Below are positions 21,669 through 36,728 of a stretch of 37,928 nucleotides of DNA, piece by piece; positions within the stretch are counted from its first letter, which is position 1, and every line of letters starts with the position of its first letter. Location of the stretch: positions 1 to 37,928 of the forward strand of contig JALSOP010000097.1 in the NCBI GenBank assembly GCA_026986435.1, written 5' to 3'. The position numbers were made by a program, and so were the translations under genes. The notes beneath the pieces were generated by a model. The model saw only the letters and a list, made by a program, of their open reading frames with translations. It searched no databases and had not been told where the DNA came from. This DNA is from Desulfurococcales archaeon. GTDB lineage: Archaea > Thermoproteota > Thermoprotei_A > Sulfolobales > NBVN01.

Positions 21669-21719
21669 TCAGACCATGGGAGTTTTTCTCATCAGGTCAA
21701 TTCCTGCCGTTCACATCAT
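21669..21719 (-). ncRNA. Candidate C/D-box sRNA (box C to box D extent)
   Basis: Minus strand ATGATGT (C) - 12 nt GAACGGCAGGAA - TTGA (D') - C - CTGATGA (C') - 16 nt GAAAAACTCCCATGGT - CTGA (D). Flanks ATGGG/CCTAT can form a 5-bp terminal stem. Intergenic between convergent genes. Confidence 0.4.
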
Positions 21720-35314: not shown

Positions 35315-35998
35315 ATGAAGGTCACGTGGTACGGCCACGCTGCATTCAAGGTCGAGATAAAGGGGAAGAAGTTCCTTGTTGATCCATGGATAAGCAACCC
35401 TAAGTCACCGCTCAAGGACCCTGCCCAGGTCGGCGACGTGGACTACATAATAGTCACGCACGACCACGGCGACCACCTCGGTGACGCCGTACGGATCATG
35501 AGGCTCGCTAGGAACGCCAAGCTAATAGCCATATTCGAGATAGCCAATAAGGTGACTCAAGAACTGGGTAGCAATGACAGGGTAATCGACGCAAACATCG
35601 GCGGCCCAATAAAGCTCGGCGACGGCTTCTGGGCTGTTCTAACCCCAGCATACCACTCCAGCAGCGTCGGCCACCCGACAGGCGTGGTCTTTGGCAACGA
35701 TGAGGAGAGGGCCTACCATGCTGGCGACACAGGGCTGTTCTACGACATGAAGCTGATCGGGGAGCTCTATAGGCCCAGGGTGGCGATGCTCCCGATAGGC
35801 GGCCACTACACGATGGGGCCGAGGGAAGCCGCTAAGGCGGTGGAGCTCCTGTTGCCGGAGTACGTCATACCGATGCACTACGGCACTTTCCCAGTGCTGT
35901 GGGGTAGGCCTGAGGAGTTCGAGAAGTACGTTAAGGAGTTTGTTGGCGAGAAGGTTAAGGTGAAGGTTCTCAAGCCCGGGGAGACCGTGGAACTCTAA
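35315..35998 (+). CDS. UPF0173-type metallo-beta-lactamase-fold hydrolase
   Basis: MKVTWYGHAAFKVEIKGKKFLVDPWISNP, IIVTHDHGDHLGDA, YHAGDTGLF, PMHYGTFPVL. Start shifted from ORF-track 35258 to ATG 35315. Confidence 0.92.
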   Translation: MKVTWYGHAAFKVEIKGKKFLVDPWISNPKSPLKDPAQVGDVDYIIVTHDHGDHLGDAVRIMRLARNAKLIAIFEIANKVTQELGSNDRVIDANIGGPIKLGDGFWAVLTPAYHSSSVGHPTGVVFGNDEERAYHAGDTGLFYDMKLIGELYRPRVAMLPIGGHYTMGPREAAKAVELLLPEYVIPMHYGTFPVLWGRPEEFEKYVKEFVGEKVKVKVLKPGETVEL

Positions 35999-36041: not shown

Positions 36042-36090
36042 TCAGCCCTGCGTGGATTCTTCACAGCTCCGCCCTTCCGAGCCTCATCAT
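36042..36090 (-). ncRNA. Candidate C/D-box sRNA (box C to box D extent)
   Basis: Minus strand ATGATGA (C) - 12 nt GGCTCGGAAGGG - CGGA (D') - GCT - GTGAAGA (C') - 12 nt ATCCACGCAGGG - CTGA (D): canonical archaeal spacing throughout; lies in a noncoding gap. Confidence 0.6.
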
Positions 36091-36128
36091 ATAATCTCGC
36101 TCATAACATATCGATAGTGTGTGAGGTT

Positions 36129-36728
36129 ATGAAGGTTGTAGTAGCCCTCACCGGCGCCTCCGGGCTCGTGTATGGGCTGCGGCTTCTTCAGGTACTGTGG
36201 GAGCTAGGGCACTCCGTTATAGCTGTCTACACCTCAGCATCCGTGGAGGTCGCTAAGCACGAGTGCTTGGGCACTGACTTCGTTGGGGTAGTGGGGAGGT
36301 TCGCGGATGAGGTCTACAGCGACTCCGACTTATGGGCCCCTATATCGTCGTCATCGAATATGCCGGACGCTGGCGTTGTGATCCCCTGCTCCCTACACAC
36401 TCTCTCCGAGGTAGCTAGGGGAGGTAACAGCGGCCTAGTTGCTAGAGTAGCCAATAACCTCCTCCGCCTAAGGCGTCCGCTGGTTCTCGTCGTTAGGGAG
36501 ACGCCTCTCAGTCTACCGGACCTGAGGAACATGGTCGCCGCGTCTGAGGCTGGAGCGATCATACTGCCCGCATCGCCAGCCTTCTACATAAGGCCCTCCA
36601 GCGTAGAGGAGATGATAGATTTCATCGTTGGTAAGGTACTGGATGTTCTCGGCATTGAGCACGGGCTCTACAGGAGGTGGGGAGCAATCAATCGAAGAGG
36701 TCCCGATCCCTGCGCCCGTATCTCCTAG
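36129..36728 (+). CDS. ubiX: UbiX-like flavin prenyltransferase
   Basis: MKVVVALTGASGLVYGLRLLQVL, APISSSSNMPDAGVVIPCSLHTLSEVARG, RPLVLVVRETPLSLPDLRNMVAASEAGAIILPASPAFY. Confidence 0.92.
   Translation: MKVVVALTGASGLVYGLRLLQVLWELGHSVIAVYTSASVEVAKHECLGTDFVGVVGRFADEVYSDSDLWAPISSSSNMPDAGVVIPCSLHTLSEVARGGNSGLVARVANNLLRLRRPLVLVVRETPLSLPDLRNMVAASEAGAIILPASPAFYIRPSSVEEMIDFIVGKVLDVLGIEHGLYRRWGAINRRGPDPCARIS

Follow-up and report, generated by a model that had tools for sequence, protein, structure and literature searches.

A deeply conserved archaeal box C/D sRNA gene with predicted guides to the wobble U34 of tRNA-Glu(UUC) and, probably, to tRNA-Leu

Box C/D sRNAs directed at the wobble base of tRNAs are established in Pyrococcus and have been predicted for Sulfolobus and Pyrobaculum (PMC7994747, PMC7668247). 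2′-O-methylation at the wobble position affects decoding, and the archaeal C/D targets listed so far are mostly ribosomal. About 16% of the Pyrobaculum guides are predicted to be tRNA-directed, some of them at the wobble base, according to the account of Lui et al. (2018) given in PMC7994747. Among 489 archaeal sRNAs one third are without an rRNA target, and many fit tRNAs or 5S rRNA, matches that were left uncompiled (PMC4644070). A further tRNA site, G47 of Pyrococcus furiosus tRNA-Leu(UAA), is predicted as a C/D site by snoRNAdb, as cited in PMC7668247; in that work the modification was undetected among the tRNAs examined by mass spectrometry (PMC7668247). Within the archaeal C/D literature consulted (PMC7994747, PMC7668247, PMC4644070) we found no guide for U34 of tRNA-Glu(UUC) or tRNA-Gly(UCC), a prior description being possible in the list of Lui et al. 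(2018) or in snoRNAdb.

The stretch of DNA analysed here, referred to as the window, comprises 37,928 nucleotides from a Desulfurococcales archaeon with a fragmented 1.54 Mb genome (168 contigs). On its minus strand, positions 36090 to 36042 read ATGATGA-GGCTCGGAAGGG-CGGA-GCT-GTGAAGA-ATCCACGCAGGG-CTGA, exactly as the initial annotation had described its boxes, spacings and coordinates (Table 1). The outer boxes of archaeal C/D sRNAs, ATGATGA (RTGATGA) and CTGA, lie at the two ends, and the internal boxes CGGA (D′) and GTGAAGA (C′) are separated from them by guides of 12 and 12 nt (about 10–12 nt being expected) and from each other by a short linker of 3 nt. A strict four-box scan [C(RTGATGA)/D′/C′/D, with guides of 10–14 nt] returned this single element in the 37.9 kb window and none in 300 windows shuffled with a first-order Markov model. 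A looser box scan adds one element, at 21669–21719, for a shuffled expectation of 0.07 per window. No Rfam family lies at or above its gathering cut-off over 36042–36090. The sub-threshold cmscan matches that span it belong mostly to archaeal C/D families (sR33, sR5, sR23 and others). The sR33 (RF01120) and sR5 (RF01304) families share its overall size and box layout, but the whole-element alignments reach only 25.8 bits for a cut-off of 37 and 24.3 bits for a cut-off of 40, respectively, which rules out membership in either. These matches therefore support the C/D class, but not membership in any named family.

Table 1. Features of the sRNA gene and of its surroundings in the window
Feature	Position	Strand	Evidence or remark
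Core of the C/D-box sRNA gene (49 nt, from C box to D box)	36042..36090	-	Architecture not seen in shuffled windows; profile hits in 186/229 class genomes
C box ATGATGA	36084..36090	-	Consensus RTGATGA; TGATGA invariant in 13/13 aligned homologues
Guide 1 (D′ guide) GGCTCGGAAGGG, 12 nt	36072..36083	-	Predicted target U34 of tRNA-Gly(UCC) and tRNA-Glu(UUC)
D′ box CGGA	36068..36071	-	CGGA/CTGA/CAGA/ATGA/TTGA in relatives, same guide spacing
D′–C′ linker GCT, 3 nt	36065..36067	-	Sequence unconserved; mostly 3 nt, longer in some lineages
C′ box GTGAAGA	36058..36064	-	TGA core invariant in 13/13 aligned homologues
Guide 2 (D guide) ATCCACGCAGGG, 12 nt	36046..36057	-	Predicted to target the G near position 47 of tRNA-Leu
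D box CTGA	36042..36045	-	Invariant in 13/13 aligned homologues
ubiX, UbiX-family flavin prenyltransferase, divergent neighbour outside the sRNA	36129..36728	+	TIGR00421, E = 1.5e-54
Second C/D-box sRNA candidate, ATGATGT-12-TTGA-4-ATGAGAA-13-CTGA	21669-21719	-	Looser box scan; covered by no open frame of >60 codons

The element is deeply conserved. A DNA search with a 151-base query gave matches in 15 of 60 related genomes, and outside the window genus these matches span barely more than the 49 nt. The 13 aligned homologues retain TGATGA, GCTCG(A/G)AAGG, the TGA core of C′, GCAGG and CTGA, and vary in the linker and in the base adjoining each D box. A profile built from these 13 homologues finds matches, at a per-genome E ≤ 0.001, in 186 of the 229 class genomes; being a sequence-only profile with rough E-values, its weakest matches may be due to chance. 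All of the 69 profile loci that were searched again gave E < 1e-8 with recognisable boxes. In a few lineages the outer boxes deviate, for example with a C box GTGAAGA and a D box CGGA. The element must be ancient, since the boxes and guides are kept in these 186 genomes, whatever the neighbouring genes, while the flanking sequences diverge. The initial annotation had held that box motifs unconserved in relatives would speak against a C/D-box sRNA. They are found conserved across the class, and this conservation bears out the assignment, the boundaries, the boxes and both proposed D+5 nucleotides; the absence of the architecture from shuffled sequences further supports the assignment. Judged from its sequence, 36042–36090 on the minus strand is a real archaeal C/D-box sRNA gene, ancient and deeply conserved. 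The D′–C′ linker is expanded in some homologues (locus L086 at G034:C20:43885-43943, and locus L260); in genome G034 it is 13 nt long, contains CCCTAGAGGG and could form a short hairpin.

Among the 39 tRNAs of the window genome, the best partner of guide 1 is tRNA-Gly(UCC) (G000:C22:6861-6936; target GCCTTCCGAGCC). The duplex lies in the anticodon arm, consists of 11 consecutive Watson–Crick pairs, including all ten of the core, and places the D′+5 nucleotide on U34. tRNA-Glu(UUC) (target GCCTTTCGAGC) ranks next among the genome's own U34 tRNAs, with nine Watson–Crick pairs and one G–U pair over the core, the latter at position 35. In nearly all relatives guide 1 reads GCTCGAAAGG, which matches tRNA-Glu(UUC) perfectly, including in genome G050. 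tRNA-Glu(CUC) and tRNA-Asp(GUC) have the same loop but mismatch guide 1 exactly at position 34, which makes the guide specific for U34 isoacceptors. When the guide is permuted, 0.2% of the permutations reach the observed score. The criterion used for rRNA in PMC4644070 is at least nine Watson–Crick pairs across the D+5 nucleotide, and it is exceeded here by the 11 pairs with tRNA-Gly(UCC). The wobble U34 of tRNA-Glu(UUC) and, in the window genus, also that of tRNA-Gly(UCC) is thus the most clearly predicted target of the sRNA. In the f11 genomes, the D-arm of the tRNA-Glu genes is interrupted by an insertion that resembles a noncanonical intron, for example GTATAGCCCGGTCATGGTTTGCGCCGAGAGTATGC (G050:C1:94146-94192; also in G206, G209, G059, G221 and G224).

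The best mature-tRNA partner of guide 2 is tRNA-Leu, at the junction between the variable arm and the T-stem (target GCCTGCGTGGGTTC). The D+5 nucleotide is the G preceding C48, at about position 47 when numbered by inspection. Positions 2–11 of the guide form nine Watson–Crick pairs and one G–U pair with the tRNA-Leu of the window genome, which agrees with the same criterion, and in 16 of 19 genomes they pair with the genome's own tRNA-Leu free of mismatches, G–U pairs being frequent; G063, G065 and G209 each show one mismatch. The G–U pairing is not optimised, as most genomes have a G at guide position 8 opposite a U of tRNA-Leu. Only 0.4% of permuted guides equal the real guide in their fit to the genome's own tRNAs. 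tRNA-Ser was discarded as a target of guide 2, with at least one mismatch in most genomes. Strict covariation with the T-stem was likewise set aside as proof: it is weak because the T-stems of tRNA-Leu are mostly the same and G–U pairs absorb the differences between guides, and genome G209 runs against it. The G at about position 47 of tRNA-Leu is the likely target of guide 2, although less certain than that of guide 1 and not settled.

We may wonder whether these features could have another origin. The 49 nt occupy the noncoding gap between an MBL-hydrolase (metal-dependent hydrolase) gene, on the plus strand and ending at 35998, and ubiX, also on the plus strand (start at ATG 36129, with an in-frame GTG at 36117), so that the sRNA does lie upstream of ubiX on the opposite strand, as first described. 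An A/T-rich CATATAATC adjoining the C box could, from inspection of the sequence, be the ubiX TATA box, and the boxes could then be coincidental features of a ubiX promoter or 5′ region that encodes no sRNA. We give this explanation practically no weight, as it is refuted by the conservation of the 49 nt in genomes that have another gene next to them or the reverse orientation, with the boxes kept across the class. Several f1 genomes have the sRNA flanked by ubiX, followed by orf147 and endA, on one side and by MetAP2 or the hydrolase on the other; in genus g7 it usually lies close to MetAP2, the locus containing no ubiX match; and in family f2 (G031 and G051; loci L087 and L088) it is directly upstream of ubiX on the same strand. 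A functional link with ubiX was also rejected: an element that changes place and orientation relative to this gene is not its leader. Compared with the window, the ubiX-adjacent sRNA of family f2 looks inverted in place. Where the presumed TATA box adjoins the C box (36084–36131), ubiX and the sRNA may have overlapping divergent promoters. The guides might instead direct rRNA 2′-O-methylation, with coincidental tRNA matches. Most known archaeal C/D guides that have a target are indeed rRNA-directed (PMC4644070, PMC7994747), and neither 16S nor 23S rRNA was found in the window genome or in its congener (G000 and G001), so that rRNA targets were sought in relatives. The window and consensus guides, compared in the proper strand orientation with the 16S and 23S rRNA of relatives (ten sequences each), gave no recurrent or mismatch-free match, and in eight relatives the best sites of their own guides in their own 16S and 23S rRNA all contain a mismatch in the ten-base core. 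As a positive control, the same method does detect a recurrent 16S site: the D guide of the second C/D element of the window fits 16S rRNA near position 48 (GCCATGGGAGTC), at the same site in the ten 16S sequences of relatives and with a mismatch-free core in nine of them. Its D′ guide partially matches 16S rRNA near position 11. We consider an rRNA role for the 36042–36090 guides very improbable. The initial annotation had looked to both rRNAs and tRNAs for complementarity; the tRNA half of this expectation holds for both guides, while the rRNA half yielded no mismatch-free match in the relatives.

Two other explanations concern guide 2. The introns of tRNA-Arg(CCU) and tRNA-Arg(UCU) (G000:C20:11297-11393 and G000:C28:3278-3374) have GGGGCTCCTGCGTGGAAAGCC in common, within which lies a stretch perfectly complementary to ten bases of guide 2. 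This guide might then act, in the window genus, on pre-tRNA introns rather than on tRNA-Leu, through the common CTCCTGCGTGGAA near the splice motif. The ten consecutive Watson–Crick pairs with both introns compare favourably with the nine pairs and one G–U pair of tRNA-Leu over the same core, but the tRNA-Leu duplex extends three bases further without mismatch whereas the intron duplexes break at the next base, and in G050, where guide 2 is conserved, the motif is missing from the tRNA-Arg(CCU) and tRNA-Arg(UCU) introns. Intron targeting thus appears improbable. A less remote alternative, which we still regard as unlikely, is that only guide 1 works, on U34 of tRNA-Glu/Gly, guide 2 being an orphan or aimed at SRP RNA, RNase P RNA or an mRNA. 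As far as a review describes them, the tRNA-directed sRNAs of Pyrobaculum combine one tRNA guide with one targetless guide (PMC7994747), and guide 2 is almost invariant (CCCGCGCAGG) although tRNA-Leu would call for an A at position 8. On the other hand, the mismatch-free pairing with tRNA-Leu in 16 of 19 genomes and its rarity among permuted guides (0.4%) argue for a working guide 2, and a C/D prediction already exists for G47 of P. furiosus tRNA-Leu(UAA), as reported in PMC7668247.

Our preferred reading, to which we assign a probability of about 0.8, is that of a 49-nt archaeal box C/D sRNA gene in which guide 1 would be directed at U34 of tRNA-Glu(UUC), and of tRNA-Gly(UCC) in the window genus, and guide 2 probably at about G47 of tRNA-Leu. 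The sRNA would be expressed and assembled through its C/D and C′/D′ pairs, which would form k-turn and k-loop motifs binding L7Ae, Nop5 and fibrillarin. Each guide would pair with a tRNA, in which fibrillarin would 2′-O-methylate the nucleotide that faces the guide base five positions upstream of D′ or D. In this way guide 1 would direct methylation of the wobble U34 of tRNA-Glu(UUC), its presumed ancestral target; after an A-to-G change of the guide base opposite position 35, tRNA-Gly(UCC) would also be methylated in the window genus. For guide 2, the methylated nucleotide would probably be the G adjoining C48, at about position 47, in the tRNA-Leu set.

The possible widening of guide 1 deserves a closer look. 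In the window genus (G000 and G001) its A-to-G change opposite position 35 coincides with a G37 in tRNA-Gly(UCC), position 37 being an A in the 18 other genomes read. The two changes combined make a perfect duplex of one that had two mismatches, and tRNA-Glu still pairs by means of a G–U. However, in genus g74 this change in guide 1 occurs in five genomes whose tRNA-Gly(UCC) keeps A37, so that the guide change need not mean retargeting, and retargeting can no longer be taken as a settled fact. As the co-change is one event seen in two congeners, and given this counterexample, the widening to tRNA-Gly(UCC) is suggestive at most. More tentative still, and short of even odds in our view, is the full scenario of a dual tRNA guide, directed in most of the class at U34 of tRNA-Glu(UUC) and at the variable-arm junction of tRNA-Leu, and widened by A-to-G together with A37G to the wobble U of tRNA-Gly(UCC), guide and anticodon loop evolving together. 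The pair of changes nevertheless offers a testable case of a guide acquiring a second tRNA target without losing the first, which stays paired by a G–U.

The locus adds a widely conserved sRNA gene outside the Rfam cut-offs, with specific predicted tRNA targets. Among its closest described counterparts is the prediction for U34 of tRNA-Gln(UUG) in S. acidocaldarius (PMC7994747, PMC7668247), with which it shares the C/D architecture, the two guides, the D+5 rule and a target at position 34. It differs from the known position-34 C/D systems in its isoacceptors, predicted to be tRNA-Glu(UUC) and tRNA-Gly(UCC), and in that both of its guides fit tRNAs, whereas the tRNA-directed sRNAs of Pyrobaculum, as summarised in PMC7994747, have one targetless guide. 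Finally, the G47 prediction cited for P. furiosus tRNA-Leu(UAA) concerns the tRNA predicted for guide 2, apparently at an identical position, but in a euryarchaeal host.
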